Positions 36,008 to 52,761 of a stretch of 64,000 nt of DNA are shown piece after piece. The stretch's first letter is position 1, and every line of letters starts with the position of its first letter. The notes below the pieces were generated by a model, which had not been told where the DNA came from, did no database searches, and worked only from the letters and a program-made list of their open reading frames with translations. The stretch lies in assembly GCA_949296075.1 (NCBI GenBank), contig CASFNG010000004.1, positions 1 through 64,000 of the forward strand. The letters run 5' to 3'. The translations under genes and the position numbers were made by a program. This DNA is from an uncultured Parabacteroides sp. (GTDB lineage: Bacteria > Bacteroidota > Bacteroidia > Bacteroidales > Tannerellaceae).

Positions 36008-36070
36008 GGCGGGATCGCCGATAGATAGGAAGCTGGGAATCGGGCTCCGGACGCCGCCTCGCGCGGAAGG

Positions 36071-37300: not shown

Positions 37301-37312
37301 GGCGGTCGTCGC

Positions 37313-37648
37313 TTACTTGCGTAACAGGTTATCTATGTTCTCGATGTAGTCAAGCGAGTCGTCGATGAAGAAGACCAGCTCGGGGATCTTGCGCACCTGC
37401 AAGCGTATCCGTTGCCCCAGATCGTAACGGATCGCCTTCGTGTTGGCACGGATCGCCTCCAGCAGCTCCTGCGATTTCCCGGAGGGGAAGATGCTCAGGT
37501 AAGCCTTCGCCACGCTCAGATCCGGGCTCACGCGAACCACGCTGACGGACACCAGCACGCCATGCGTCTTTTGCGTCTGTTTCTGGAAGATGTCTCCCAG
37601 CTCTTTTTGCAACAGGCGCTCGATCTTGTGTAATCTCGTACTTTCCAT
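37313..37648 (-). CDS. rbfA: 30S ribosome-binding factor RbfA
   Basis: This protein has 111 residues from the ATG at 37648; the open frame to 37810 reaches into the upstream methyltransferase gene and is not needed. The sequence STRLHKIERLLQKELGDIFQ at the N-terminus, VSVVRVSPDLSVAKAYLSIF in the KH-like core and the C-terminal LRKIPELVFFIDDSLDY-like segment (actual: VRKIPELVFFIDDS) are typical. RbfA assists maturation of the 16S rRNA 5' end in the small subunit. It lies 11 nt after the methyltransferase gene. Confidence 0.93.
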   Translation of the reverse strand: MESTRLHKIERLLQKELGDIFQKQTQKTHGVLVSVSVVRVSPDLSVAKAYLSIFPSGKSQELLEAIRANTKAIRYDLGQRIRLQVRKIPELVFFIDDSLDYIENIDNLLRK

Positions 37649-37659
37649 ATCGTATTCCT

Positions 37660-38295
37660 TTACTTTTTCCAGATCAAGGTAAGGCCGTCGCGGAGGGGAA
37701 GGATCACCTTCTCCACCCGGTCGTCCCGCTTGATCTTGTCGTTGAACGACATTATTCCTTTTGTCTGTTTGTCGGAGGCATGCACCTCCTCCACCACCTT
37801 TCCGTCCCAAAGCGTGTTGTCGGCGAGGATAATCCCGCCTTGTCTCACCTTCGGGAACACCAAGTCGTAATAATCCGAGTACAGCCGTTTGTCGGCATCG
37901 ATGAAGACCATGTCGAAAGTCTCCTCTAACCGGGGGATGATCTCCATTGCGTCGCCGAGATGGAGTCTCACCTTATCCCGATGCGGAGACCGTGAGAGAT
38001 ACTTTTGGATGAAGTCCTCCATCTCATCGTTGATCTCGATCGTGTGGATCAAGGCTCCCTCTTCCATCCCCTCGGCCATGCAGAGGGTGGCGTATGCCGT
38101 ATAGGTGCCGATCTCCAATACACGGCGGGGGCGGAGCATCTGGCAGAACATCTTCAGTATACGACCTTGCAGGTGCCCCGACAGCATACGCGGACGGAGG
38201 AGGTTCACGTTGGCGTCGCGGTTCAGCGCCGCCAGCAAGTCTCCTTCCTCATCGATATGCGATAGGATGTAGCCCTCGATCCCTTCCGCGAACAT
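37660..38295 (-). CDS. class I SAM-dependent O-methyltransferase
   Basis: This 211-residue protein belongs to the Methyltransf_3 / catechol O-methyltransferase-like family. The SAM-binding motif VLEIGTYTAYATLCMA lies near residue 60, with HTIEIND (motif II), FDMVFIDADKRLY near residue 130 (metal-binding Asp) and IILADNTLWDGKV near residue 155. The physiological acceptor is unknown; relatives methylate catechols or act on tRNA (TrmR-like). It follows pyk by 4 nt, so co-transcription is very likely. Confidence 0.9.
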   Translation of the reverse strand: MFAEGIEGYILSHIDEEGDLLAALNRDANVNLLRPRMLSGHLQGRILKMFCQMLRPRRVLEIGTYTAYATLCMAEGMEEGALIHTIEINDEMEDFIQKYLSRSPHRDKVRLHLGDAMEIIPRLEETFDMVFIDADKRLYSDYYDLVFPKVRQGGIILADNTLWDGKVVEEVHASDKQTKGIMSFNDKIKRDDRVEKVILPLRDGLTLIWKK

Positions 38296-38299
38296 ACGA

Positions 38300-39757
38300 T
38301 TATTCCGTGAAAGTTGGTAACTGGTATTTCTCCCCTGCGTCGAGAACCTTGCCTACGTTGTTGATCTCCAGGAAGCTGGTGCCTCCACCTTCGCCGAAAC
38401 TTCCGCTGAGGTAGGCCACCATGTCGTTGCGCGTGATACGTCCGCTGAGGATCAGCTGGTGAAGTGCGTGGTAGAAATAACCGCGTCGGCTGTCGTTGTA
38501 GGGTTGATGAACCGCCCATACCCCGTAGGAGAGCGAGAGCATCCGCATCACCCTCGGGTTGTAGCAGATGGCGAATACGGTAGAGGTGCCGCGGAAGGCG
38601 GCGAGGTACCGCGCCGTGCGGCCGGTGTAGCTATCGGTGATGATCGCCTTGACGTGCAGCTTCGACGACGACTTTACCGCCTGCTTCGCCAAGAAGGAGG
38701 TGACATCGAGGTCGTTGCCCTCGATCGGGACACGTATGTCGTTGGCGGCGAGCTTGGTCTTCTCGGCCTCGTGCGCCACTTTCGTCATGGTCTGCACGGC
38801 CTCCACCGGATATTTGCCGTAAGCCGTCTCTCCGCTCAGCATCAAGGCATCCGTACGGTAGTAGATCGCATTGGCGATGTCGGTCACCTCGGCCCGGGTG
38901 GGGCGGGGATTGCTGATCATGGAGTGGAGCATCTGGGTGGCCACGATGACCGGTTTCTTCACCTCCACGCACTTGCGGATCAAGACGCGCTGGATGCCCG
39001 GTATCTTCTCGGCGGGAACCTCGATACCCAAGTCGCCGCGGGCGATCATGATGCCGTAGGCCGCCTCCAAGATCTCGTCGATATTATCCACGCCCTCTTG
39101 GTTCTCGATCTTGGCGATGATCTTGATGGGGCTGTTATATTCGTCCAATATACGCTGTATATCCAGTACATCCTGCTTGCTGCGCACGAACGAATGGGCG
39201 ATGAAATCCAGGTCGTGCCCGATCGCCCAGACGATATTGCTGCGGTCTTTCTCCGTCAGCGACGGCAGGTTGATGCGCACGCCCGGCACATTCACGCTCT
39301 TGCGGCTGCCGAGGGTGGCGTCGTTCTGTATCTCGCAGACCAAGTAATCGGTCGTTTTCTCGGTGACCTTCAGCTCCAAGTCGCCGTCGTCGATCAGGAT
39401 GTCGCTGCCCACCACCAGGTCGTTCACGAAATTCTTGTAAGAGACGCAGATCAACTCGCGGGTAGTCTCCTGGTCCGGGTTCCCCATGATCCGGACGGTA
39501 TCTCCCGTCTTGAAGGGGATCGGCTCCTTGTTTACCGTTGTCGTGGTGCGTACCTCCGGTCCTTTCGTGTCCATCAGGATCCCGATCCGGTCGGATACGG
39601 CACGGACATTATTCACCACGCGTGTCAGCCCCTCCTCTGTCATGTGGGCCGTGTTCAGGCGTACCACGTTCATTCCCGCCTTGTAGAGCGCGTCGATAAA
39701 CTCCACGTCGCAGCGCTGGTCGGAAATCGTGGCGACAATCTTCGTATGCTTCAACAT
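38300..39757 (-). CDS. pyk: pyruvate kinase
   Basis: This 485-residue enzyme transfers phosphate from PEP to ADP. The N-terminal HTKIVATISDQRCDVEFI and NVVRLNTAHM start the barrel. Residues around 210-250 show IIAKIENQEGVDNIDEIL and GIMIARGDLGIEVPAEKI, with the catalytic Lys and metal-binding Glu/Asp. ATQMLHSMI follows, and the C-terminal domain ends the chain. Length fits the tetrameric bacterial form. It is second in the aroQ-pyk cluster. Confidence 0.96.
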   Translation of the reverse strand: MLKHTKIVATISDQRCDVEFIDALYKAGMNVVRLNTAHMTEEGLTRVVNNVRAVSDRIGILMDTKGPEVRTTTTVNKEPIPFKTGDTVRIMGNPDQETTRELICVSYKNFVNDLVVGSDILIDDGDLELKVTEKTTDYLVCEIQNDATLGSRKSVNVPGVRINLPSLTEKDRSNIVWAIGHDLDFIAHSFVRSKQDVLDIQRILDEYNSPIKIIAKIENQEGVDNIDEILEAAYGIMIARGDLGIEVPAEKIPGIQRVLIRKCVEVKKPVIVATQMLHSMISNPRPTRAEVTDIANAIYYRTDALMLSGETAYGKYPVEAVQTMTKVAHEAEKTKLAANDIRVPIEGNDLDVTSFLAKQAVKSSSKLHVKAIITDSYTGRTARYLAAFRGTSTVFAICYNPRVMRMLSLSYGVWAVHQPYNDSRRGYFYHALHQLILSGRITRNDMVAYLSGSFGEGGGTSFLEINNVGKVLDAGEKYQLPTFTE

Positions 39758-39818
39758 AATACCTTTATATTTATTGACCTAATTATTAATGTATATAGAT
39801 AACCTCCCAACAAGTGGC

Positions 39819-40235
39819 TCAGCGGAACGACTCGACCGCCAGGCGATAGGAATCGAGCCCGAACCCGAGGATCACTCCCCGGCAGGCCGCCGAGATCATG
39901 GATACATGGCGGAATGGCTCGCGGGCATGGACATTCGAGATATGCACCTCCACCACGGGAGTGGTGACCGCCTGGATCGCGTCGCGCAAGGCGATGGAGG
40001 TGTGCGTGTAGGCGCCTGCGTTGAGCACGATCCCGTCGAAGTCGAACCCTACCTCATGGATCTTGTTAATCAGCTCCCCCTCTATGTTACTCTGGAAATA
40101 GGCGATCTCGCACTCGGGATAGTCAGAGCGCAGCGTCTCCAAGTACCCCCCGAACGAGGCGTTGCCATATACGGCCGGTTCCCGTTTACCCAATAGGTTT
40201 AAGTTAGGGCCATTGATGATCTGGATCTTCTTCAT
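39819..40235 (-). CDS. aroQ: type II 3-dehydroquinate dehydratase
   Basis: This 138-residue enzyme catalyses the third step of the shikimate pathway. Motifs in order are INGPNLNLLGKREPAVYG (active-site loop with Arg and Tyr, about 6-23), FQSNIEGELI (about 47), LNAGAYTHTSIALRDAI (about 75-91) and VEVHISNVHAREPFR with the catalytic His (about 98-112). It is the first gene of the minus-strand cluster, 61 nt before pyk. A reverse -7-like TATCTTCG (40280-40273) lies upstream. Confidence 0.95.
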   Translation of the reverse strand: MKKIQIINGPNLNLLGKREPAVYGNASFGGYLETLRSDYPECEIAYFQSNIEGELINKIHEVGFDFDGIVLNAGAYTHTSIALRDAIQAVTTPVVEVHISNVHAREPFRHVSMISAACRGVILGFGLDSYRLAVESFR

Positions 40236-40316
40236 ACTTTTCTCGCAAGTTTAGTATCTTTGGCACAGTTGCCGAAGATAGGATGCGCCTCGGCCCCGCG
40301 AAAACGGGCGGGCCCT

Positions 40317-40347
40317 TTTGCGTGGCACTTGGCTTTCACTATCTTTG
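40317..40347 (+). promoter_or_regulatory. promoter of xerD
   Basis: TTTG (40317-40320), a 19-bp spacer and TATCTTTG (40340-40347) form an exact consensus promoter pointing at xerD. A second forward TATCTTTG occurs at 40255-40262. Confidence 0.8.
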
Positions 40348-40410
40348 CCTTAATCGCCGTACGAGCCGGGATTATCCGGCAAAGGTAAGGTTTTATTTGA
40401 CACGTTCCTA

Positions 40411-41331
40411 ATGAGATACCCTACAATGCGACCCGAAAAAGATATAATGAGCCGATATGACACCTATTTGCGGTTAGAGAAATCGCTCTCGCCCAACTCG
40501 ATCGACGCCTATATGACGGATCTCGACAAATTGGCGCGCTTCGCCGAGACGGAAGGCAAGAAGCTGACAGACATCACCTACGACGACCTCCAGCAGTTTG
40601 TCGCCCAGCTGCGCGACATCGGCATCCATCCCCGCTCGCAGGCCCGCATCCTCTCCGGCATCAAGTCGTTCTACCATTTCCTGCTGCTCGACGGCTATAT
40701 CTCCACCGACCCGACCGAGCTGATCGAGTCGCCCAAGATCGGGCTGAGGCTGCCGGAGGTGCTTACCTTGGGCGAGGTGGACCGTATCCTCGATTCCATC
40801 GACCTGACCACCCCCGAGGGGCAGCGCAACCGGGCCATGCTAGAGGTGCTGTATAGCTGCGGCCTGCGGGTATCCGAGTTGGTAGGGCTGCGCTACTCGG
40901 ATGTCTATCCGAAGGAGGGCTTCGTGAGGGTAGAGGGAAAGGGGGGCAAGCAGCGGCTGGTCCCCATCTCCGACACCGCCCTCCGCGAGATCCGCAACTA
41001 CCTGATCGACCGTAATCAAGTAGTGGCGAAGAAGGGCTTCGAGGACATCCTTTTCCTCAGCCGGCGGGGGACGGCGCTCTCCCGGATCATGGTGTTCCAT
41101 ATCATCAAGGAGCAGGCGGAAAAAGCTGGCGTACAAAAAAACGTAAGTCCGCATACTTTTCGTCATTCCTTCGCCACCCATTTATTGGAAGGCGGGGCGA
41201 ACCTCCGGGCGATCCAGGAGATGCTCGGGCACGAGAAGATCACCACCACCGAGATCTACACCCATATCGACCGGGCCTTCCTGCGGCGCGAGATCCTGGA
41301 GCACCATCCCCGCAACAAGCCGAGGGGGTGA
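40411..41331 (+). CDS. xerD: site-specific tyrosine recombinase XerD
   Basis: This is a housekeeping-type recombinase of 306 residues; ATGs at 40426 and 40447 are alternative starts. The N-terminal SAM-like domain reads SRYDTYLRLEKSLSPNSID. The catalytic domain has LYSCGLRVSEL (catalytic Arg), HTFRHSFATHLLEGG (His-x-x-Arg), GHEKITTTEIYTH (His and the nucleophile Tyr). It resolves chromosome dimers at dif together with a partner. Its length, isolated position and place next to aroQ argue against a mobile-element integrase. Confidence 0.92.
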   Translation: MRYPTMRPEKDIMSRYDTYLRLEKSLSPNSIDAYMTDLDKLARFAETEGKKLTDITYDDLQQFVAQLRDIGIHPRSQARILSGIKSFYHFLLLDGYISTDPTELIESPKIGLRLPEVLTLGEVDRILDSIDLTTPEGQRNRAMLEVLYSCGLRVSELVGLRYSDVYPKEGFVRVEGKGGKQRLVPISDTALREIRNYLIDRNQVVAKKGFEDILFLSRRGTALSRIMVFHIIKEQAEKAGVQKNVSPHTFRHSFATHLLEGGANLRAIQEMLGHEKITTTEIYTHIDRAFLRREILEHHPRNKPRG

Positions 41332-41337
41332 GAGGGG

Positions 41338-42807
41338 CTATCGCCTCGTCTGTTTCCGGACGATCCTCCCTATCCTGCGGACGCAAAGGCAGGCGCCGGT
41401 GGCGCAAACGGCCGCCCCGCCGAGGCAAAGTGTCCAAACGCAGAGTGTCCATAGCGCCGGACGGTCGATCAAGAATTTGACATTGAGGTAGTGAAATGCG
41501 TTGAACAGCCATCGCCGGACCATCTTGTTCCGGTTCAGGTAGTGGATGTCGCCCGTATGGGGATCTACATAATAACGCGAGCGGATCGCGTCGTCTACCG
41601 TCACCCGATAGACCGGGAGCGGATAGCTGTGCTTGTAAGAGAGGTAATAATCGTCGTATTCCTTTAACAGGTCTATCCGAATGGGAATCCCCTCTCCATG
41701 TATTTTCTTGACGGCCTCCAAAATGAGTGAGGAGGGAAGGGAGAGCGGGCGGATCTCCCCGGCTGCCGACGCGTCGATCCAGCGTTCTACGTTCCCCTCG
41801 ATAATCCGGTAAGCCGGAAGGGAGGCGAAACGTGTCCACTCCACCTCCTTCAATAAAGGGTATTCCTTTTTCAGGAGGCGATAGTCGAGAGCGTAGGACG
41901 AGGAGGGGAGTAGCCGCTTCCCCCATAGCTTCGTCTCGGGGAAGAAGTATTTTCCGTCGGAGTTGACTAACCATTGCGGCACGCGCCGCATGGCGAACAC
42001 GCCGCTCATGCCCCAAGTGATGAGGAAGAGCCCGAATACCAGTCCTAAGGCGTAATGCCATCGCCAGGCGAATTTCCGGTAAGGGTTGGCTATCCTGCCC
42101 TGTTTACGGTAGGTGCCGACGCAGAGGTATAGCCCGAGCGCGAGCCCGCTCAACGCGGCGAGCAGGCAGAGCGTGCCGCCGATCGTGATGCTCGTCTCCC
42201 AGCGGTCGAGGTGTTTCCTGATAAAGGGGAGATAGAATTTGTGGGGGATGGCCCCGAGCCAAGCCCAGATCCGTTCGTTCCGGTTAGTGAGTTGCTGTGC
42301 CTCGCCTGTCTTTCCGGAGATGAAGAGTTCGTGCCTCTCGGGATCGTCGAAATAGAACTTATAGATCGGCATGGCACGGTCGTATCGGGAATAGAGGATC
42401 CACTGTTCCCGCTCGTTGAGGGTATCTACCCGGCGTATCGGGGCGTCGATCCAACGAAGGGCCTCCGCCTCCGCGAACTTGTAGGTGACCGGTAGGATCG
42501 GGGGGGGAGTCCCGGAAGGATAGACGAAAGCCGTGTCGTCAGTCGCCACGGAGACCTGCGTTTGCCCTTGGAATTGTCGCAGGGATAGATGCCGTATCTC
42601 GCCACCGGCACGCTCCTCGATCTCCCGGGGGGCAGGCAGCGAATCAGGCAAGCTCTCCTTCATCTCGTTCAGTCGTGCCTCGGATAACCGGGGATAGGGA
42701 TGATAGATCAGGACGAGCCCTGTCAGGAACCACATCAGGAAGAACAGGGCGATGATACCGCCTACGAGACGGTGCCCCGTAAATAAGAGGCGAATCGTTT
42801 TTTTCAT
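41338..42807 (-). CDS. PepSY-associated membrane protein (XusC-like)
   Basis: This 489-residue inner-membrane protein has four hydrophobic helices: HRLVGGIIALFFLMWFLTGL (about 11-30), SITIGGTLCLLAALSGLALGLYL (about 205-228), HYALGLVFGLFLITWGMSGVFA (about 252-273) and LWTLCVWTLCLGGAAVCATG near the end. Long periplasmic PepSY-type domains lie between them. Paired histidines at helix edges (HRLVG, HYALG) suggest haem or metal binding, as in siderophore reductases such as FoxB. With the DUF4374 lipoprotein and TonB receptor upstream it matches the Bacteroides XusABC layout, where XusC has this architecture. A strong hairpin separates it from the DUF4374 gene. Confidence 0.85.
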   Translation of the reverse strand: MKKTIRLLFTGHRLVGGIIALFFLMWFLTGLVLIYHPYPRLSEARLNEMKESLPDSLPAPREIEERAGGEIRHLSLRQFQGQTQVSVATDDTAFVYPSGTPPPILPVTYKFAEAEALRWIDAPIRRVDTLNEREQWILYSRYDRAMPIYKFYFDDPERHELFISGKTGEAQQLTNRNERIWAWLGAIPHKFYLPFIRKHLDRWETSITIGGTLCLLAALSGLALGLYLCVGTYRKQGRIANPYRKFAWRWHYALGLVFGLFLITWGMSGVFAMRRVPQWLVNSDGKYFFPETKLWGKRLLPSSSYALDYRLLKKEYPLLKEVEWTRFASLPAYRIIEGNVERWIDASAAGEIRPLSLPSSLILEAVKKIHGEGIPIRIDLLKEYDDYYLSYKHSYPLPVYRVTVDDAIRSRYYVDPHTGDIHYLNRNKMVRRWLFNAFHYLNVKFLIDRPALWTLCVWTLCLGGAAVCATGACLCVRRIGRIVRKQTRR

Positions 42808-42833
42808 GATTTTTTCGCTTAAAATGATGGGAT

Positions 42834-42869
42834 GATAAACGAAAGGGTCGCCGCGGTCCGCGGCGACCC
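42834..42869 (-). terminator. hairpin between the DUF4374 and PepSY genes
   Basis: On the minus strand GGGTCGCCGC pairs with GCGGCGACCC around GGACC and is followed by TTTCGTTTATC. It may end part of the transcripts and lower expression of the PepSY gene relative to the receptor and lipoprotein. Confidence 0.6.
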
Positions 42870-42905
42870 CCTCGTGATCTCGCGATCGGCGTAGGATCTG
42901 AGCCC

Positions 42906-44201
42906 CTATTCCTTGTCGTCGTTATCCAATAAGACGATCCGGTTGAAGACGTATCCTTCCGTGATCTCCATCCCTTTGGAGGCTTGCCCGGCAGGGATGT
43001 CGTAGATATAGACGCAAGGAGCCGAGCTTTGCGGGTTGACACCGATGTAGGCCATGTCGCCATCCACCAAGGAGCGTTGGGAGAAGGTGCCGCTGCTGAA
43101 CGGCAGGTTCTTCCCGTCGCATTGGATCTCCGTCTTCTCGTCGGTATTCAAGTCGAGGATCGCGTAGTAACAGTTGTAGGCGCTTCCCCACTCGCCCGCT
43201 CCGGTATAGGTGGGATCCTGGATATAGATCAACGCCTTCCCGGGAGTCAGGTAGCTGGCGGTCACCAACTTGCCCTGATCGTAGTTGTAGCCCGTATAGC
43301 TATTGTCGAACGCCATCTCCCCTTTCTTGATCCGGAGCAGGCGGCCATATTGCTGCGTGGAGCTGGGCGCTCCCGGGATCTTGATGTTGCAGGCGAGGTA
43401 CAGGTTCTCGTTCTCGTCGAAGAACATCTTGTCTTGCAGCAACTCGCCGTAAGCCGTGCCCGCCATCTGCTCGGCACGCTCCTCCACGATGTCGCCCACC
43501 TCCACGCTCATGTCGTCGGCGTTGATGAAGGCGGCGTAGAAATGGCTCTTCTCTTTCTTGTGCTGGTAGAAATAGATGACGCGGTTGTCCGACTTCCGGT
43601 AGCGCGCCAATCCCGATGTGCTGAACGAATCCCCCTCGGGGCAGACCAGCGGCAGCTCGCCTTCCGCCAAGATGCTCATGTCGCTTGCGTTCAGCTTTGT
43701 CCAGATCACCTTGTCGCCGGTGCCATTAGCCGCCATGATAAGCAGCGTATTGTCGTCGATCCATGCGTGGGTATAGCGACGATCCTTAAAGGTATTCTTC
43801 ACGAACGGCTGTTCGGCGATCACCTTCAGCTGGTTCCCCACGATCTGGTATTTCGAGAAACGGTCGGCGGATACGGGTACCTGGTAATAATACTTCCCCT
43901 TGATGATGGACTCCTGGTGCATCGTGGCGGTCACGTCCGCGCCATCGTTCCGGAAATCGACGGTCGGCTGTACGGTGAGTGAGTCGAGGCTTTTTACCAA
44001 CAGCGTGCTTTTCGAGCCCATGCCACCGGCACCTCCTACGCTTACCCAGATGTCGAAATGGGTAGTCCGTGCCTCGGTCTCCGGCTTATCCGGCTGGTCG
44101 GGAGTGGGGTTTGGCGTTGGGTCATCCTTGTCACAGGCGTTGAATGAAAGCGCGCAGAGCGAGGCTGCGAGCATACAGGCGAATAATTTGAATTGTTTCA
44201 T
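42906..44201 (-). CDS. DUF4374 domain lipoprotein (XusB-like)
   Basis: This 431-residue lipoprotein has the signal SLCALSFNAC followed by DKDDPTPNPTPDQPDKPE, an acidic and Pro-rich tether that resembles Bacteroides surface lipoprotein export signals. The body consists of beta-rich repeats (THAWIDDNTLLIMAANGTGD, YFYQHKKEKSHFYAAFINAD, TASYLTPGKALIYIQDPTYTG), consistent with a beta-propeller. The DUF4374 family includes XusB, which binds enterobactin at the cell surface of Bacteroides thetaiotaomicron. The gene lies 11 nt after the TonB receptor, so they are one operon. Here the operon is preceded by a cobalamin riboswitch, so the ligand may be a corrinoid rather than a siderophore. Confidence 0.87.
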   Translation of the reverse strand: MKQFKLFACMLAASLCALSFNACDKDDPTPNPTPDQPDKPETEARTTHFDIWVSVGGAGGMGSKSTLLVKSLDSLTVQPTVDFRNDGADVTATMHQESIIKGKYYYQVPVSADRFSKYQIVGNQLKVIAEQPFVKNTFKDRRYTHAWIDDNTLLIMAANGTGDKVIWTKLNASDMSILAEGELPLVCPEGDSFSTSGLARYRKSDNRVIYFYQHKKEKSHFYAAFINADDMSVEVGDIVEERAEQMAGTAYGELLQDKMFFDENENLYLACNIKIPGAPSSTQQYGRLLRIKKGEMAFDNSYTGYNYDQGKLVTASYLTPGKALIYIQDPTYTGAGEWGSAYNCYYAILDLNTDEKTEIQCDGKNLPFSSGTFSQRSLVDGDMAYIGVNPQSSAPCVYIYDIPAGQASKGMEITEGYVFNRIVLLDNDDKE

Positions 44202-44212
44202 GATACATTTAT

Positions 44213-46567
44213 TTAATTAATGAAGAATCTGAACTTACAGAAGAACGACCGTCCGGGCTTCTGGAGCATATAATTATCGTAGACCAACCGGTCGAACAGG
44301 TTGTTACATTCCAATGAAAGCGTATATCTCTCCCCTTTCCACGAGTAGGCGAGGCGGGCGTTTTGCAGATGCTGCGTCGGGATGCGCGATTTGCTCGCCA
44401 GTGATCCGTAGCCTTCCCAGGTCAGGAAGAACCAATGCACGTATTGATAGTCGTAGCCGATGCGCAGCTTGCTCTCTTTCATGAACAGGTCGGGGATAAT
44501 GATGTCCAACTCCGCGTTGCCGAACAGCCACGGACGGTTCGGGACCCGGTTATTGTAGGAGATAGAGGGCTTGCCGTCGTCCTTGAGGCGATCCTTGTCT
44601 CGCGCGTCCTGGTAGCTGCAATTCGCGATCGCCTGGAGATAGTCGCCCCATTGGTAGCGTACTTCCCCCTCCACGCCCTTGATGTCCACGCTCGACACGT
44701 TCTCGTATTGCATCATTCCCTCTATCTCCGAGATCACGGCATGGATATAATCGTTCACGTCGCGGTAGAAGCCGTTCACCTCGTAGTACAGCAGATGCCG
44801 CGGAGCGAGCCGTACCGATCCATATACCCCGGCGTTGACGTTATGGCTGTTCTCCGGGTTCAGGCGGACGTTGGGGTAGATGGTCGTGCCGTTACCCAGC
44901 AGCTCGCGGGCGAGGGGAAGGCGTACGCTATGCTCGTAGGAGGCCTTCAGCGAGAGCGCTTCCCGGAAAGTGTAGCGGCTACCCAATCCATATCCGACAT
45001 GGTTCTTCGTGGATGACGAGGGTATTCCGTCGGATCCGGTGATCCACGACAGATCCTGCTGCTGGATGTTCAGGTGATTGATATAGTCCTTCAGGAAGAA
45101 GGTGTTCCGCATCCGCCCTTCCAAGAAAGACTGACTATACGAAAGCCCGAGGATATGCTTGGCGAGCACGTCGTTCGAGGGCTCGAACTCCGGGTCGATC
45201 TCGTCGTAACGGTCGTTCCCCGTGCGGCTCAGCAGGTAATTCAAGTTAAGCGAGTGCCGCTCGTTGAAGGCGTAATCCAGATTCCCCCGGACGATCGTCA
45301 GCGGGCGGTCGTAGTGTCGGAGCGAGCGTGCCCGCCCCGTGATCTCGTTGCGCGAGCTCTCGATGAAATTCCCGTTCCAGTCGTATTTCCTGAACGCTGT
45401 ATCCACGGTCAGCGCATGGTCCCAGGTCTGCGAGAGCGAGGCGTTGAGTCGCAGTCCGTCCACCATGAAACGATCCTTCCGGTAGCGTGCCGACAGGTTC
45501 CATGCGTGCGATTGCCGCTCCGCCATGCCATACACCTTGCTCTGTATCGAGCCCGTTTGCAACTCCTTATCCACTTGGGTATAGGAGGCCGACACGAAGA
45601 ACGCGTCCGCCCACGGCTTGCCTGTCACGCCCATCTCTAATTGTCCCCAGAGGGAAAGGTAGTCGTCGTGGAAACGCTTCCGGTCGCGGGGCACGTACTT
45701 CCGGCTCTCCTCGTCCCAAAGCTCCACGCCCTTCATCATATAGTCGTTCTTGGAATAGTTTACCCCAAGGGAGGGACGGAACACCAATCCCGTCCGTTTC
45801 TCCACCAACTGGGCGTTGAGATCCGCCTTATGCGTGTGGAACGACCCCGCCCCGTACGAGGCATCCAAGTAATTCCGCCGCTCCTCCTTCGTGATGATGT
45901 TGATGGCCCCGCCCAAGGCATCCGCCCCTAAGTGCGCGGGTACGACACCCTTGTAGATCTCGATCCGGTCGATCAGGTTGACCGGCAGGTTCGCCAGCGT
46001 GACACCGCTCCCCTTCGTGTCGAGCGGCACGCCATCCATGAAGTAGCGAACCGAGTTCCCCGAGAGGCCGTTGATCGAGAGCTCGAAATCCGATCCCACG
46101 CCTCCCTCCTCGCGGATTCGTATGCCGGTGGTGCGGTTGACCAACGTGTTCAGGTTGTTGACCGAGGCGGTGACCCCTTTCACGTCGAGCGCGTTCACGG
46201 CGAAGGCGCCCTCCTTCAGCCGCTGGCTCTTGCTTTTCCCATAGATCTCTACCGATTCCAAGCGTACGTCCTGCCCCTTTAGCGAGAAGTCGCGCCGGGT
46301 ATCCCTTGTCAGCCGGATCTCCTCCCGGACAGGCTCGTAGCCTAAGCAAGATACCGCGATCCGGTGGCTACCCGGCTCTAAGCGCAGGAGGTAGGTGCCA
46401 TCCTCCTCCGAATAGGTGCCGAGCGAGGTGTCCTCCACCGCCACGGCGACGGCCGGTATCGGATGCCCGTCGCCATCCAAGATCTTACCGGACAGCGTAA
46501 CCTTCTCCTGCGCCCATAGCAAGAGCGGGAAAAGGAAACAAATAGCTAACGCACTACTTCGTTTCAT
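44213..46567 (-). CDS. TonB-dependent receptor under cobalamin riboswitch control (XusA-like)
   Basis: This protein has 784 residues from the ATG at 46567. The open frame extends to 46762, but those extra 65 residues are translated riboswitch sequence. The signal peptide MKRSSALAICFLFPLLLWAQ is followed by a carboxypeptidase-regulatory-like domain (about 22-100, GDGHPIPAVAVAVEDTSLGT). A plug domain follows (about 120-235, LSGNSVRYFMDGVPLD and GADALGGAINIITKE), then a 22-strand barrel to about residue 784. It lacks the SusC extension length and has no SusD partner, so it resembles siderophore, haem or B12 receptors. Co-transcribed with DUF4374 and PepSY genes. Confidence 0.92.
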   Translation of the reverse strand: MKRSSALAICFLFPLLLWAQEKVTLSGKILDGDGHPIPAVAVAVEDTSLGTYSEEDGTYLLRLEPGSHRIAVSCLGYEPVREEIRLTRDTRRDFSLKGQDVRLESVEIYGKSKSQRLKEGAFAVNALDVKGVTASVNNLNTLVNRTTGIRIREEGGVGSDFELSINGLSGNSVRYFMDGVPLDTKGSGVTLANLPVNLIDRIEIYKGVVPAHLGADALGGAINIITKEERRNYLDASYGAGSFHTHKADLNAQLVEKRTGLVFRPSLGVNYSKNDYMMKGVELWDEESRKYVPRDRKRFHDDYLSLWGQLEMGVTGKPWADAFFVSASYTQVDKELQTGSIQSKVYGMAERQSHAWNLSARYRKDRFMVDGLRLNASLSQTWDHALTVDTAFRKYDWNGNFIESSRNEITGRARSLRHYDRPLTIVRGNLDYAFNERHSLNLNYLLSRTGNDRYDEIDPEFEPSNDVLAKHILGLSYSQSFLEGRMRNTFFLKDYINHLNIQQQDLSWITGSDGIPSSSTKNHVGYGLGSRYTFREALSLKASYEHSVRLPLARELLGNGTTIYPNVRLNPENSHNVNAGVYGSVRLAPRHLLYYEVNGFYRDVNDYIHAVISEIEGMMQYENVSSVDIKGVEGEVRYQWGDYLQAIANCSYQDARDKDRLKDDGKPSISYNNRVPNRPWLFGNAELDIIIPDLFMKESKLRIGYDYQYVHWFFLTWEGYGSLASKSRIPTQHLQNARLAYSWKGERYTLSLECNNLFDRLVYDNYMLQKPGRSFFCKFRFFIN

Positions 46568-46635
46568 TCTGATATGTATGTATGTTTTCACCAGTCGCGG
46601 CTTTATACCCCGAAAGCCATGCGACTTTTCGCTAA

Positions 46636-46816
46636 GATTGGCAGGTCTTCTGACTTGCTCTTTCCTCCGGCGCGCCTTCCCGTCCGTTCCTGACAGTGGC
46701 AAGAGTGATGCCCGGAGTTGGTTGATAGAGCTTACAGCAGCGGGTCTGTCCTGGATTCTCACCAGGTTCCCTTTTCATTATCTCCCCGAGGAAAACAGGG
46801 GATGATAACACCAATC
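46636..46816 (-). ncRNA. cobalamin riboswitch
   Basis: On the minus strand the leader holds the hallmarks of the B12 riboswitch in order: P1 strand GATTGG (46816-46811), core GGGAACCTGGTGAGAATCC, the GACAGACCCGCTGCTGTAAG region, GCCACTG, GGGAAGGC, and the conserved B12 box AGTCAGAAGACCTGCC, closing with CCAATC (46641-46636) that pairs with the first strand. It ends about 70 nt before the TonB receptor start. Binding of cobalamin should repress the downstream genes. Confidence 0.95.
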
Positions 46817-46821
46817 CGTCG

Positions 46822-46852
46822 CGAAGGTAAGCATCCATTTAATAAAACAAAA
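46822..46852 (-). promoter_or_regulatory. promoter of the riboswitch-controlled operon
   Basis: On the minus strand TTTTG (46852-46848), an 18-bp spacer and TACCTTCG (46829-46822) place the transcription start next to the 5' strand of riboswitch stem P1. Confidence 0.65.
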
Positions 46853-46994
46853 GGATCCGCTACATTTTTTCGCGAAACTTGGGGATGCCTTTGACGAAAG
46901 TTAACGGCGTTTTGGATAAAAGTCGGGCGGGCTTTTCCGTGCCGTCGCTTGCGTTTCCGGCGAAACCCGCTACATTCGCGATAAAAGCGCGCGT

Positions 46995-49190
46995 ATGAGA
47001 AAATGGCTTGTGCTGTGGATGATCGCCTTGATCTCGCTCGCCTCGGCCGGGACGGAGCGGAAGAAGGTCGGCTTGGTGTTGGGAGGCGGGGGCGCTAAGG
47101 GCGTCGCCCATATCGGGGCGCTGAAGGTGATCGAGGAGGCGGGGATACCGATCGACTATATCGCCGGCACCAGCATGGGGGCGATCGTGGGCGGGTTGTA
47201 TGCCGTGGGGTACAGCGCCGCCGAGATCGACAGCATGGTGAGGGCGCAGGACTGGAATATGCTCCTGAGCGACCGGGTGGAGCGCAGCAGCCTGACCTTT
47301 CCCGAGAAGGAGAACGCCGAGCTTTACGTGTTCTCCCTGCCGTTCGGGCGGACCAAGCGGGAGATCGATATACAAGGGATGATCAAGGGGCAGAACTTGC
47401 AGAACCTCTTCTCCGACCTCACGATCGGGTATCATGACGCGACCGACTTCGACCATTTGCGGATCCCCTTCGCTTGCGTGGCGATGAACGTGGTGGATGG
47501 ACGCGAGTACGTGTTTCGGTCCGGGAGCCTCCCGCTGGCGATGCGGGCGAGCATGGCGATCCCCGCGGTGTTCGCCCCGGTGAGGATAGACAGCATGGTG
47601 CTGGTGGATGGAGGGATCAAGAACAATTATCCCGCCGACGTGGCGAAGGATATGGGCGCCGATGTCTTGATCGGCGTGGATCTGGGGACCAGCGACTTGA
47701 AACAGATCGAGAAACTGAATACCCCTTGGGACGTGGTGGGGCAGATCATCGCCCTGAACGGCTATGAGAAATATGGTCCCAACCGGGAGCGGACCGACCT
47801 CTTGATACGTCCGGAGACGAACCCTTACAACTCTGCCAGCTTCAGCGAGGCGGCGCTCGATACCTTGATCCAAAGGGGAGAGCGGGCGGCCCGGGAGCGC
47901 TGGGACGATCTCTTGGCGTTGAGGCGGCGGATCGGGCTGCCGGACAGCGTCGCCCATACGGATCGGGGAGGGATGGCGGTGGCGCATCCCGATACCTTTT
48001 ATATCCGGCATATCCGCTTCCAGGGCGTGGACGAGCGTGATGAGCGGTGGCTCCTGCGGATCAGCGGGCTGAGGGAGGACAGCTACCTCTCGGTGGATAG
48101 GCTGCGCGAGGCGATGTCGATCGTGATAGGGACGAACCTCTACGCGAACGTGAGCTATAAGTTGGTGGGGGAGCGGCAGGAGGACTTGGTGCTCCAGGTA
48201 AAACCGAAATCGAGCACGGCGCTTAACCTCGGGCTCAACTTCAATAGCGAGGACATCGTTGCCCTCCTGCTCAACGCCACTTTCGACAACCGGGCCAAGT
48301 ATCACTCGAAATTCTCGCTTACCGGCCGGATAGGGAAGCGGATGTATGGACGGATCGACTATGCCGTGGAGCGTAACCCCCTGCGTAACATCAACCTCTC
48401 GTATCAGTTTACCTATAATGATCTCGATGTTTACGAGCGGGGCGACAAGCGGATGAACACTACCTATCGCCATCATTTCGCCGAGCTGGGCTATTCGGAT
48501 ATGAACTGGCTGAACTTCAAGCTGAAGTTAGGGCTGAGGTATGAGTATTTCGACTATAATCCCTTCCTCCATACCTCGGGCGACCAGCGGTATCAGGTAC
48601 GTTCCGAAGGGTTTGTCAGCTATTTCGCGCAAGCGCATTTGGAGACCTTGGACAGGCGCTATTTCCCCCGGAAGGGAGTCTCCTTGCAGGCGGATTATTC
48701 CATCTATACCGATAACTTCGTGACTTACCGTGGGCATACCTTTTTCTCCGCCCTACGCTTGAGTTTCCTCTCGGTGCTCCCGCTCACCTCTCATCTGAGC
48801 CTGCTTCCTTCGGTGGACGGGCGGGTGCTGATCGGGCGGGATCCGGCTTATCCTTTCCTCAATGCCGTGGGTGGCGAGACGCCCGGCCGCTACCTGCCTC
48901 AACAGTTTCCTTTCGCGGGGATAAGCCACGTGGAACTCTTCGATAACGCCGTGGTGATCGCCCGCCTCAACCTTCGCCAGCGGATCGGGCAGCGCCATTT
49001 CATCTCGCTGATCGCCAATTACGCGATCCATGAGAATGATTTCTTCCATCTTTTCCGGGGCGAGAGCGTGTGGGGCGGCAGCGTCGGCTACGCCTATAAC
49101 AGCATGGTGGGGCCGATGAGCGCGAGCTTCGGATTGTCGAACCGGAACAAGAGTCCGCAATTTTACCTGAACTTGGGGTATAGTTTCTGA
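46995..49190 (+). CDS. patatin-like phospholipase with Omp85-type barrel (PlpD-like)
   Basis: This 731-residue exported protein has a signal peptide (KWLVLWMIALISLASA). The patatin domain (about 25-290) has the oxyanion motif GLVLGGGGAKGVAHIG, the nucleophile Ser60 in GTSMGA, and catalytic Asp205 in DGG. A POTRA-like segment (about 325-410) and a C-terminal 16-strand barrel (about 420-731) follow, ending PQFYLNLGYSF. This is the type Vd (PlpD/FplA) layout, which exposes a phospholipase A1/A2 at the cell surface. A -7 box TACATTCG lies at 46971-46978. Confidence 0.92.
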   Translation: MRKWLVLWMIALISLASAGTERKKVGLVLGGGGAKGVAHIGALKVIEEAGIPIDYIAGTSMGAIVGGLYAVGYSAAEIDSMVRAQDWNMLLSDRVERSSLTFPEKENAELYVFSLPFGRTKREIDIQGMIKGQNLQNLFSDLTIGYHDATDFDHLRIPFACVAMNVVDGREYVFRSGSLPLAMRASMAIPAVFAPVRIDSMVLVDGGIKNNYPADVAKDMGADVLIGVDLGTSDLKQIEKLNTPWDVVGQIIALNGYEKYGPNRERTDLLIRPETNPYNSASFSEAALDTLIQRGERAARERWDDLLALRRRIGLPDSVAHTDRGGMAVAHPDTFYIRHIRFQGVDERDERWLLRISGLREDSYLSVDRLREAMSIVIGTNLYANVSYKLVGERQEDLVLQVKPKSSTALNLGLNFNSEDIVALLLNATFDNRAKYHSKFSLTGRIGKRMYGRIDYAVERNPLRNINLSYQFTYNDLDVYERGDKRMNTTYRHHFAELGYSDMNWLNFKLKLGLRYEYFDYNPFLHTSGDQRYQVRSEGFVSYFAQAHLETLDRRYFPRKGVSLQADYSIYTDNFVTYRGHTFFSALRLSFLSVLPLTSHLSLLPSVDGRVLIGRDPAYPFLNAVGGETPGRYLPQQFPFAGISHVELFDNAVVIARLNLRQRIGQRHFISLIANYAIHENDFFHLFRGESVWGGSVGYAYNSMVGPMSASFGLSNRNKSPQFYLNLGYSF

Positions 49191-49242
49191 GATTTATTAC
49201 ATTTGCCGTCGTTTTATGAACCGAGAAAAGAGAGCGAGCGAG

Positions 49243-49914
49243 ATGAATGAGCAGATTCTATCCTTCCTGAGAGAGCTGGGTGCCCATAATAACCGGGAGT
49301 GGTTTTTGGAGAACAAGCCGCGGTACGACGCGTTGCGCGAGGGCTTTATCGACGAGGTGCAGGCATTGATTAACCGGATCGCCCTGTTCGATCCCGAGGT
49401 GGCCGGGCTGGAGGCGCGGGATTGCCTTTTCCGTATTTACCGCGACATCCGCTTCTCGCCCGACAAGACACCCTACAAGACCCATTTCGCCGCCTATATC
49501 GCCCGCGGAGGACGCAAGAGCGAGCGGGGAGGCTATTACCTCCATCTGGAGCCCGGCCACTCGCTGTTGTCAGGTGGGGTATGGTGTCCGCCGCCCGCGT
49601 TGCTGAAAAAGCTCCGGCAGGATATATACGACCAGATCGAGGAGTTCGCGGCGATCATAGAGGCTCCCGCCTTCAAGCGTGTCTTTCCCGCGTTGGATGG
49701 AGAGACGCTCAAGCGGATGCCGGCGGGATTCCCGGCGGATTCTCCTTATGGGTACATCTTGCGGCATAAGGATTTCTGCGTGTCCTCGCTGAAACCGGAC
49801 GCGTTCTTCCGCGAGGACGACTGGATGGAGCGTGCGGTAGCCGATTTCCGTTTGCTGCTCCCCTTTAACCGTTTCTTGAATTACACGGTGGACGAGTATC
49901 TCGGGCTTGTCTGA
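49243..49914 (+). CDS. DUF2461 domain-containing protein
   Basis: This protein has 223 residues from the ATG at 49243. An ATG at 49216 is possible but lies only 10 bp past a -7 box TACATTTG (49198-49205), which would make the mRNA almost leaderless. DUF2461 motifs are ILSFLRELGAHNNREWFLENK, DCLFRIYRDIRFSPDKTPYKTHFAAYI and YYLHLEPGHSLLSGGVWCPP. Function unknown; cytoplasmic. It starts shortly after the patatin gene but has its own promoter. Confidence 0.9.
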   Translation: MNEQILSFLRELGAHNNREWFLENKPRYDALREGFIDEVQALINRIALFDPEVAGLEARDCLFRIYRDIRFSPDKTPYKTHFAAYIARGGRKSERGGYYLHLEPGHSLLSGGVWCPPPALLKKLRQDIYDQIEEFAAIIEAPAFKRVFPALDGETLKRMPAGFPADSPYGYILRHKDFCVSSLKPDAFFREDDWMERAVADFRLLLPFNRFLNYTVDEYLGLV

Positions 49915-50126
49915 CTTTTTTCTGCTTGAGGCGTTCGGATGCACCAAGTAAATGACTATTTGCTAACCAAGCGTTTTGTTTTTCGATCGCTTTTGCCGAT
50001 GCTATCCGTTAAATATGTTAAATATTGTGATTTTGCTGACGATTTGTTAGTTTAAGTTTGGAGGTTATACAGAAACTTACGTATTTCGCGATGTCAAAAG
50101 ACTGTGACCTTTAAATTTAAAATAGT

Positions 50127-50534
50127 ATGAAAATGTCAGTTTGTGGCAAAAGTATTTTCGCGTTTGTCTTTCTGTTCATGTGTAGTCTCGCGATCAACGC
50201 GTCGTCGCCGAAGAGTTATCTTTACGACACGAAGACGGAGAATGGAAAAGTCATCTCGAAGGTGGTTTTCTCGCAGGAAGACGGTTTATTGAGCAAACAG
50301 GTTCGTTATGAGTTCCGGTACAATGAGGAAGGCAAGGTCTCTGAGAAGACGGCTTACCGTTGGGACGGCAGGAACGACGAATGGGTACCTTTCTATCAAG
50401 TCACCTACCGCTACGATGCCCAAGGAGATATCCAGACTCGTTACGGAATGTGGGATAAGAAGAAAAAGGTGTTCGGGCTGAACGTGCAGAACATGGTGAT
50501 CCCGGGCGCCAATTACGAGGAAATTTTCTCATAA
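50127..50534 (+). CDS. DUF3836 domain-containing secreted protein
   Basis: This 135-residue protein has a signal peptide (SIFAFVFLFMCSLAINA) and a body of beta-hairpin repeats with tyrosines (YLYDTKTENGKVISKVVFSQ, YEFRYNEEGKVSEKTAYRWD, VTYRYDAQGDIQTRYGMWD). This matches DUF3836, a family largely confined to Bacteroidales, of unknown role. It has a -7 box TAAGTTTG (50053-50060) in an AT-rich 212-bp leader and its own terminator. Confidence 0.85.
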   Translation: MKMSVCGKSIFAFVFLFMCSLAINASSPKSYLYDTKTENGKVISKVVFSQEDGLLSKQVRYEFRYNEEGKVSEKTAYRWDGRNDEWVPFYQVTYRYDAQGDIQTRYGMWDKKKKVFGLNVQNMVIPGANYEEIFS

Positions 50535-50576
50535 TACATACTTTCTTATAGACTTTTCATAGAAATGATTGAGGGG

Positions 50577-50613
50577 CACGAGGCGATGTGTTATCGCCTC
50601 GTGTCTCGTTTTT
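50577..50613 (+). terminator. terminator of the DUF3836 gene
   Basis: CACGAGGCGAT (50577-50587) pairs with ATCGCCTCGTG (50593-50603), followed by TCTCGTTTTTA. Confidence 0.85.
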
Positions 50614-50622
50614 ATGAACGTC

Positions 50623-52662
50623 CTATCTCACGGGAAACTCGGTGATCCGCAAGGTCGTGCAGCCATAAGGGATCAATTCGATCGTCTCCTCGCCATCGAG
50701 ATCCACGCCGTGCTGGGTGTAATAAGGGACGGGTCCGACCGATCCCCGGACTAATATCCACCCTTTCAGCCGGATGGCCTTTGTCTTGATGCGTATGGGG
50801 GCGTTCTCCACATTCCAGGGATAGGAGGCTATCGAGCCCGACCGCTCAACCTGAAAGGATTCCTTGATCCGCTCGGGAGAGAATGAGCGGGCGGATAGGG
50901 CATAATTCCAGGGGCTGCTTGAGGTGACTTGGTAATACCATTTCCCATACTGCCCGGATTGTTCGGCATCGAAGGCTTTCTTTTCCCATTTCTCGTCCAT
51001 CCTCAAGGCATAGACCAGCGGTCCCCGCTCGACCACGGCGCTGCTGTCGTACCAACGGCTTATCGAAACCTCCATAGGCAGCTCGACACTCAGGATGTCC
51101 CCGCTTTTCCATGCTCGGTTTATATGGGCTATGGCTCCTGGATAAGCATCTACATCTAAGGGTTCGCCGTTCAGCTTGACGACGGGCTGTTCGCACCATC
51201 CGGGAATACGGACGTGGAAGGGGAAGAAAGCCTCACCGACTTGCTTGTCGGCGAACGAGACGTGGAAACGGATCGTTTCCTCGAATGGATAATTTGTCTC
51301 CTCCTTTATATTTACCTCTATACCATCAGCTACCTTGGCGGTCACCCGAGACGGGGCGAAAACCAAGGCGGCTATACCATTGTCTGCCGTGGCATACCAC
51401 AGGTTCTGGACGAGTTTGGGCCAGCCTTGGTGCAGGTTGGAGGTACAGCAGGGATAGCCGGTCAGTTCCCCGAAGAGCAGGTCGGTGTCGTCGTGGGGCG
51501 TGGAGAACTCCCTCCACGCTCGGCTGACCGATACCTGGTTGGTCTGTTGGTAATATTGACGGGCGGAGTAATCGTCGGTCACCTGCGTGGGCAGGGCGTT
51601 GTAGGCCACCCGCTCCAAGTAATCCGCCCATCGCGCGTCTCCCGTGACCTCTAATATCGATTCCAGCGAATACATCATCTCCACGGCGGTGCAGAGCTCG
51701 GAACCGGCCGTGGGAGTCCCGAACCGGAGCAGCTCGTCGCCACCCCATAAGCCCGTAGGCAAGCCGATCGTGTTGTGGATGTCGCGGACAGCTTTCCTGA
51801 CAGACTGGAGCTGCCGGGGATCCTTGTTCCGCTGGTAATAGATGACCGGTTCCTTGAAGCCCTGCGCCAAGTTCACGCAATGCAGGCTATGTTGGCGCGA
51901 CAGGTGATCCTGGTTCAGGAACACGTCGGTCCAGTCGAAGGTCTGCTTGTGGATCAGATCCCCCAGATCCAGCAGGAACTTGTCGCCGGTGATGTTGTAC
52001 AGCCAATAGACGACCAGCAGGTTATCGCCTCCTCGTTGCTCGCCCCAGAAGGTCCATTTCCCCAGCGGGCTCTTCGGAAGCTCCTTCAGTTGATATTTGA
52101 AATACCGGGTCAGGAAGTCGATCACCCGTTGATCCCGTGTGGCGGTGTAATATTGCTGCATGACCTTGAGCATGACCATCTTGGGCCACCAGTCGCGAGC
52201 GTTGTCCCTTTGCAGTCCCGGCTCAGGTTCCCGGTCGGTGTCAGGCCCGAAGTAGCCGTCCGGTTTTTGGGAGGCCAGCGTCCATTCTACCCAGGGCTTG
52301 ACCTTCTCTATGAGAGCCTGGTCGTCCAGGATATAGGCGAGCGGCAGCAGCCCGTCGATCCAGTAAGGCCCCCGTTCCCATACGTCGCCATCGCCGCCAA
52401 GCCATCCGTTGCGCGGCCCCATCACTTTCCCGTAGATCTCGTCCAAATGACCGGTCATCCCATCCTTCATGCGGAGCAATTGCTCCTGCATCCATCCCTC
52501 AGCCCGGATACTTCCGAGCGGTAGTGCGATATACTCCTTTTGCAGCAAGGGCTGACGGTTGTTCCGGTAATTCCCGTTTACGGATTCTCCATTGGCGGAT
52601 ACGCTGGCCATGAGCGTGGAAGAGACAGCGGCCGCCCACAAAAATGTTCTGATTCTTTTCAT
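50623..52662 (-). CDS. GH127 beta-L-arabinofuranosidase-like glycoside hydrolase
   Basis: This 679-residue exported protein has a signal peptide (LWAAAVSSTLMASVSA). The (alpha/alpha)6 barrel begins near QPLLQKEYIALPLGSIRAEG. Glu322-x-Cys324 (SELCTAVEM) and Cys405-Cys406 (YPCCTSNLHQGWPK) match the zinc-binding Glu/Cys set of GH127 HypBA1, in which one of the paired Cys is the nucleophile. A C-terminal beta-sandwich follows. It probably releases beta-L-arabinofuranose from plant glycans. It is the only enzyme of SusCD locus 2 and lies 99 bp after susD, behind a terminator-like hairpin. Confidence 0.9.
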   Translation of the reverse strand: MKRIRTFLWAAAVSSTLMASVSANGESVNGNYRNNRQPLLQKEYIALPLGSIRAEGWMQEQLLRMKDGMTGHLDEIYGKVMGPRNGWLGGDGDVWERGPYWIDGLLPLAYILDDQALIEKVKPWVEWTLASQKPDGYFGPDTDREPEPGLQRDNARDWWPKMVMLKVMQQYYTATRDQRVIDFLTRYFKYQLKELPKSPLGKWTFWGEQRGGDNLLVVYWLYNITGDKFLLDLGDLIHKQTFDWTDVFLNQDHLSRQHSLHCVNLAQGFKEPVIYYQRNKDPRQLQSVRKAVRDIHNTIGLPTGLWGGDELLRFGTPTAGSELCTAVEMMYSLESILEVTGDARWADYLERVAYNALPTQVTDDYSARQYYQQTNQVSVSRAWREFSTPHDDTDLLFGELTGYPCCTSNLHQGWPKLVQNLWYATADNGIAALVFAPSRVTAKVADGIEVNIKEETNYPFEETIRFHVSFADKQVGEAFFPFHVRIPGWCEQPVVKLNGEPLDVDAYPGAIAHINRAWKSGDILSVELPMEVSISRWYDSSAVVERGPLVYALRMDEKWEKKAFDAEQSGQYGKWYYQVTSSSPWNYALSARSFSPERIKESFQVERSGSIASYPWNVENAPIRIKTKAIRLKGWILVRGSVGPVPYYTQHGVDLDGEETIELIPYGCTTLRITEFPVR

Positions 52663-52723
52663 TTCGCAAAAATACTATTTTTTAGGATCGATCCCTGCTT
52701 TTCGCTTGGAGGGATCGGGGTTA

Positions 52724-52757
52724 AAAGAGGGTGTTCCCAAGTGGGAGCACCCTCTTT
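52724..52757 (-). terminator. terminator-like hairpin between susD and the GH127 gene
   Basis: AAAGAGGGTGCTCCC pairs with GGGAACACCCTCTTT on the minus strand and is followed by T and AACCCC. It lies 5 bp after the susD stop. It may make GH127 expression partly independent of the SusCD transcript. Confidence 0.65.
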
Positions 52758-52761
52758 GTCG

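Follow-up and report, generated by a model that had tools for sequence, protein, structure and literature searches.

A cobalamin (vitamin B12) riboswitch and the three genes behind it, all on the minus strand, lie within 64,000 nucleotides of DNA from an uncultured Parabacteroides sp. (Tannerellaceae; GenBank assembly GCA_949296075.1, contig CASFNG010000004.1, positions 1 to 64,000 of the forward strand; this whole stretch is called the window). An earlier annotation made from the letters (the sequence-only reading) had described a promoter and complete riboswitch heading a TonB receptor, a surface lipoprotein and a PepSY protein. That arrangement held, with an Infernal match, promoter motifs directly before the aptamer, domain matches for receptor and PepSY protein, and XusB homology for the lipoprotein (Table 1).

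Table 1. Coordinates of the riboswitch-led operon in the window
Feature	Positions	Strand	Remarks
Cobalamin riboswitch aptamer (RF00174)	46623-46830	minus	Infernal; 104.6 bits; complete
Promoter-like element (TTTG 46848-46851, TACCTTCG 46822-46829)	46822-46851	minus	fits directly before aptamer
Hairpin 3' of aptamer, probable expression platform	46593-46626	minus	between aptamer and start codon
XusA-type TonB-dependent receptor, 784 aa, N-terminal carboxypeptidase-like domain	46567-44213	minus	PF00593, PF07715, PF13715
XusB-type surface lipoprotein, predicted propeller fold, 431 aa	44201-42906	minus	CDKDDP at lipobox cysteine
XusC-type PepSY-TM inner-membrane protein, 489 aa	42807-41338	minus	PF03929, PF03413

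The RF00174 run, a check proposed by the sequence-only reading, matched model positions 1-189 (full length) at E 4e-25, above the gathering score of 31.5. Leaders were compared for the window and 30 of 31 relatives' loci (n = 31; L036, cut by a contig end, was omitted). The -7-type element TAnnTTnG lies a few bases from the aptamer 5' edge in 30 of them, the miss (L032) having Ns there, and the full TTTG/TAnnTTnG pair of the Bacteroides-type promoter consensus is found in 9/31, against 0.2 in mononucleotide shuffles. Hairpins similar to that of the window (CUUUCGGG..AAAG) were seen by eye in many compared leaders; since no U-run follows the hairpin, translational control seems likelier than termination. 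Back-to-back divergent cobalamin riboswitches stand at the operon start in three relatives (L017:3811-4496, L034:4028-4462 and L037:4204-4652).

The receptor matches the XusA structure 9gbc_A (entry 9gbc also contains the DUF4374 partner) at E 3.2e-116, versus about 1e-15 for Escherichia coli BtuB. In the tree it forms the sister group to iron-type XusA (support 99/98), sharing 30-36% identity with the members of that type compared, and it does not join the branch that contains two BtuB-type receptors, themselves named by context. NCBIfam did not class it as BtuB-type (TonB-B12, 103.3 bits versus a cut-off of 599.7), and its top match there, siderophore receptor MxcH (494.4), is also under its own cut-off of 925. 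In eight relatives (L021, L023, L025, L028, L029, L031, L037 and L039) the receptor alignment begins only around residue 88-103 of the window protein, so that the carboxypeptidase-like domain at the N-terminus seems to be missing.

Sequence comparison makes the lipoprotein homologous to XusB (9hqe, E 5.6e-9; profile, 5.1e-12; lipoprotein profile A1 has 30 rows, L033 and the split gene of L014 being omitted). Comparison with XusB structures, again proposed by the sequence-only reading, matched its predicted fold to the XusB-type propeller, with hookless BfXusB nearest among the matches listed; BtXusB was not among the VIA-align matches listed, which is not evidence against likeness. The earlier assignment to DUF4374 had to be dropped, as PF14298 gave no match to the lipoprotein even at E 10; in the window genome, PF14298 matches only another locus (C1:37334-38638). 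Nor did the lipoprotein match PF16819 (DUF5074), which does match the BtuG-type protein of the same genome (locus L007). Among the ferric enterobactin (FeEnt) contacts of BtXusB (hook, R167/S168, S254/R255, Y411/Q413), the alignment spans the S254/R255 loop alone, and the counterpart there is variable. In the PepSY protein, His 12, 189, 251 and 439 are invariant in an alignment of 13; it is probably a haem-dependent reductase, and a PDB sequence search gave no match at E 1. By sequence and, for the propeller, also by predicted fold, receptor and propeller group with XusA/XusB, not with BtuB/BtuG.

Occurrence and link to corrin-ring genes

When genome contigs were searched with the lipoprotein, relatives turned up at 31 loci, in records titled Parabacteroides, Tannerella, Dysgonomonas, Bacteroides, Prevotellaceae, Muribaculaceae, Alistipes and unplaced Bacteroidales. 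A XusA-type gene is next upstream of the lipoprotein gene in all 31 (with a gap of about 0.6 kb in L023), and RF00174 precedes the receptor gene on the same strand in all 31 (the L036 aptamer being cut 5' by the contig end). The control was DUF4374 Xus loci from 28 of 31 genomes with full-length matches (E <1e-100; G133, G152 and G197 were not included): RF00174 was found in 0/28 within about 5 kb upstream, a stretch that held the receptor gene in 28/28. This genome count of riboswitch leaders had also been proposed by the sequence-only reading.

For 78 sampled genomes from the family to which the window belongs, a lipoprotein match was called strong at a best E <=1e-100, a cut-off chosen after seeing the gap between 3.3e-107 and 4.4e-20 (best match per genome). 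Strong matches occur in 19/78 genomes, and CbiD is present in 19/19 of these and in 2/59 of the rest (G143, G147); put the other way, the match is found in 19/21 cbiD-positive versus 0/57 cbiD-negative genomes, and 53/57 of the latter have B12 riboswitches. The association is significant (Fisher p 3e-16, or 3e-12 in the 49 genomes >=90% complete, with significance overstated through kinship), in 5/6 genera having the operon as many genomes carry CbiD as carry the operon, and operon and cbiD lie on separate contigs or >100 kb apart in 17/19 genomes. The strong matches comprise 22 loci, 21 with a riboswitch upstream (for G199 and G160 by coordinates matched to G003 and G010, taken as the same genomes); the remaining locus (G150) is cut by a contig edge. 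These loci overlap the 31-locus set. Four family genomes have weak matches only (E 4e-20 to 4e-11), which coincide with DUF4374 matches, all without CbiD. For DUF4374 Xus itself, association with CbiD is weak at most (12/31 against 9/47, p 0.07).

CbiD was also found in 29/30 genomes behind the 31 loci (exception G026, a 2.0-Mb metagenome-assembled genome; the L022 genome was not covered). An order-wide draw of 98 genomes gave two strong matches, both with CbiD; CbiD was over the cut-off in 6/96 genomes without a strong match, and a riboswitch match occurred in 91/98. B12 riboswitches are thus far commoner here than the operon, and the operon accompanies corrin-ring genes.

Two side observations concern these genomes. 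At G187:C3:522404-524280, a second riboswitch-type XusB copy directly follows its riboswitch, with no space for a receptor gene. In G000, G147 and G143, cbiD-positive members of the family, a small gene of 215-240 aa (L006:3398-4081, L107:1263-1985 and L109:3708-4355(-)) stands behind a cobalamin riboswitch and beside a gene judged priA-like by eye; an outer-membrane beta-barrel profile was found in L006.

Neighbouring genes and possible supply of the ring

Neighbours were named by Pfam on representatives and BLAST against these, and BtuC/BtuD by sight. Within the downstream stretches covered, PepSY is seen in 12 of the 31 loci and a CobN-family gene in 9; L031 and L035 (the latter from the commensal Bacteroides cellulosilyticus DSM 14838) have both, and 12 loci have neither, some loci being cut short. 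ExbB and DUF2149 accompany the CobN-family gene in 5/9; the one CobN-family protein of the nine that was compared (L025) scored 1052.8 bits with the HmuS haem dechelatase, versus 346 with ChlH and 320.3 with CobN. CbiK is in the operon in 8/31 loci (L019, L023, L025, L027, L031, L032, L033, L035), and CbiK N-termini, that of the window genome included, look signal-peptide-like by eye. PepSY is followed by CbiA, BtuF, BtuC, BtuD and CbiH in L012 and L034 and by CbiHC, CbiET, CbiGF and CbiJ in L015; CbiA and BtuF come after the lipoprotein in L039; and L139 (G131) reads XusA, XusB, CbiK, PepSY, CobN, ExbB. Loci without any such corrin or CobN neighbour include L010, L020 and L028. With a dechelatase and an exported cobalt chelatase in sister operons, a metallo-tetrapyrrole is a better fit than cobalt in chelated form. 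Behind CbiK in L019:10854-15207 (a T. forsythia record) and L136:9650-16109 (G148) stand one to two more TonB receptors and a second PepSY gene, in the same direction.

The search for early tetrapyrrole genes covered hemC, which was not found in 17/20 operon genomes, including the single-contig G137, G148, G176 and G193. Genomes without hemC should be unable to make uroporphyrinogen III, so corrin makers among them should need an imported ring. A ring compound of this kind exceeds the porin size limit, and a TonB receptor under B12 control is therefore expected. The window genome has five cobalamin riboswitches, the other four leading an outer-membrane barrel gene, a BtuB-type locus, a BtuFCD-type locus and a cbiK-cbi operon; among riboswitch-led genes, which were those surveyed, TonB candidates are the BtuB-type receptor and the Xus-type operon only. 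The XusABC-like trio behind a cobalamin riboswitch, as described by the sequence-only reading, is thus borne out and conserved, and it is separate from the BtuB/BtuG-type locus (L007) that the genome has as well. Among cobalt transporters CbiM was searched, and was not found in 19/20 operon genomes or in 17/17 cbiD-negative genomes. With hemC likewise rare in cbiD-negative genomes, absence of either gene does not mark the operon.

For the six cbiD-positive, operon-free genomes of the order-wide draw, 20 stretches around cbi and riboswitch loci were read and 10 proteins run on Pfam. Next to the cbi genes of G043 are proteins that match NAD_binding_7, tetrapyrrole methylase, CbiX and CbiQ, and next to those of G090 are CbiM and CbiQ. 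The stretches of G108, G112 and G117 showed nothing decisive. The order in G086 (L115:998-8392(-)) is riboswitch, TonB receptor, CbiL, TonB receptor, CbiK-like lipoprotein, second CbiK, possibly a parallel system. At G043 L120:4072-12093, a riboswitch leads a TonB receptor and PepSY without XusB, and a second riboswitch precedes BtuFCD-type genes.

Cargo and rival explanations

Probably the operon is a B12-repressed outer-membrane importer supplying raw material for corrin synthesis, not finished B12. That its cargo is a tetrapyrrole rather than cobalt is an evenly balanced call, and we give about the same even credence to the best reading as a whole, B12-repressed import of a siroheme- or sirohydrochlorin-type precursor for B12 synthesis, the ligand being predicted. 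We favour precursor import because receptor and propeller descend from a family handling anionic metal complexes, and because of the CbiD tie, the lack of a hemC match in most operon genomes, the two riboswitch-led TonB receptors, and the CbiK, CobN, BtuFCD and cbi neighbours in relatives. Low B12 would let the riboswitch release expression; the XusB-like lid would catch an anionic precursor of metal-tetrapyrrole type (siroheme or a compound akin to sirohydrochlorin being likeliest) and hand it to the XusA-like TonB receptor. Periplasmic metal handling would fall to the PepSY reductase or, in other species, to an HmuS-type dechelatase, after which exported CbiK would put cobalt into the ring and a BtuFCD-type transporter would carry the product to cytoplasmic Cbi enzymes. 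More tentatively, Bacteroidales that have lost uroporphyrinogen III synthesis may steal siroheme/sirohydrochlorin-type rings with siderophore-piracy machinery turned to a new use, exchange the metal for cobalt once the ring is in the periplasm, and complete B12 inside.

Several observations count against precursor import. The operon is absent from 6/8 cbiD-positive genomes of the order sample and, within the family, from G143 (86% complete) and G147 (99%), both cbiD-positive and without a hemC match. hemC matches occur in 3/20 operon genomes (G056, G157, and G150 as pieces with stops); hemC was also not found in 14/17 cbiD-negative genomes tested, so its absence is a requirement of the reading and not a correlate of the operon. 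In 12/31 loci neither PepSY nor CobN is seen in the stretch covered (some cut short). The operon of the window itself contains neither CbiK nor a CobN-family gene: an HmuS dechelatase was looked for, and none of the open reading frames in window 36001-53000 belongs to the CobN cluster, and the window genome's cbiK heads another riboswitch operon. That genome is only 83.75% complete.

The main rival is cobalt-chelate import, in which cobalt would arrive on a metallophore or stolen siderophore and be released as Co(II), for use in making B12, when PepSY reduces it from Co(III). It shares the tie to CbiD equally, receptor and propeller are of siderophore type, and CbiM is missing from nearly all operon genomes and present, with CbiQ, beside the cbi genes of operon-free G090 (CbiQ in G043). 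The CbiM absence is unspecific, however, extending to all the cbiD-negative genomes tested, and cobalt import explains neither why some relatives have an HmuS-like CobN or BtuFCD next to the operon nor where hemC-less genomes get their ring. We preferred it at first on the CbiD result and lowered it on the hemC result and the HmuS match; it now appears rather unlikely. A second route for a finished corrinoid (cobamide or cobinamide), as the sequence-only reading had suggested, is improbable, because a strong lipoprotein match is missing from all 57 cbiD-negative family genomes, which would be most in need of outside corrinoids and, as auxotrophs, would be expected to have the operon. The other earlier suggestion, a siderophore system under B12 control, survives in part, as descent, given the sister position to iron-type XusA and the XusABC gene order, while an iron function merely put under B12 control is the least probable of all: the window genome keeps a separate, riboswitch-less DUF4374 Xus locus, such loci coexist in 12/21 cbiD-positive genomes with no riboswitch in the 28 examined, and neighbours in several relatives are corrin-synthesis genes.

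Known systems and significance

The operon resembles XusABC of Bacteroides (9gbc, 9hqe/9hqk; PMC13142918) in gene order, receptor family, propeller fold, acidic lipoprotein N-terminus and PepSY partner. It differs in its cobalamin riboswitch, separate receptor clade, missed PF14298, nearness to hookless BfXusB and the corrin-ring genes of the sampled genomes; Xus relatives that bind differing siderophores have been described (PMC13142918). With BtuB-BtuG cobamide loci it shares riboswitch control and a lid-type propeller lipoprotein with a TonB receptor, whereas receptor and lipoprotein belong to other families, the operon is absent from cbiD-negative family genomes, and it coexists with a BtuB-BtuG-type locus. 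The CobN-family gene in 9/31 loci, five with ExbB and DUF2149, recalls the Hmu haem operon with HmuS and the B. fragilis BtuS1 operon; the operon type described here has XusA/XusB instead of HmuR/HmuY, and the window copy has no CobN-family gene. A cobalamin riboswitch before Hmu-like operons has been remarked on (PMC10100974).

The exported CbiK-type proteins recall FetB (IhtB of Porphyromonas gingivalis), a CbiK-like haem-binding protein whose gene is linked to a TonB receptor. The window genome's CbiK matches 9b86, though it sits in another operon.

Tetrapyrrole precursor salvagers were defined by Shelton et al. (PMC6461909) as bacteria that carry corrin-ring genes yet lack the early tetrapyrrole genes. 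That paper gives their 5-aminolevulinic acid (ALA) dependence as verified in three species, none Bacteroidota, and cites P. gingivalis as lacking the steps to precorrin-2; the passages of it covered here name no outer-membrane importer. If precursor import is right, the operon would explain the ring source of corrin makers without early tetrapyrrole genes, and a siderophore-piracy scaffold would have been reused for vitamin-precursor piracy. If the cargo is cobalt instead, the receptor becomes a candidate cobalt-specific outer-membrane receptor; cobalt cargo was predicted for B12-riboswitch TonB receptors and none confirmed, in the part of PMC7689651 available. Two further sources list 'cnoABDC' and 'cbtF' among cobalt-uptake genes (PMC8123684) and count 6 Bacteroidetes with 'other predicted Co transporters' (PMC2667541), and under those gene names or categories this operon was possibly annotated earlier as cobalt uptake. 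Searches of open-licence literature brought up neither a Xus or DUF4374 operon led by a riboswitch nor a paper that treats riboswitch, Xus proteins and corrin makers together. Whichever cargo is right, the leader of a Xus-like operon should be checked before the operon is annotated as an iron-uptake system.

The divergent neighbour of the operon (window 46995-49190(+)) is a patatin-Omp85 fusion (PF01734, PF19143), probably unrelated.

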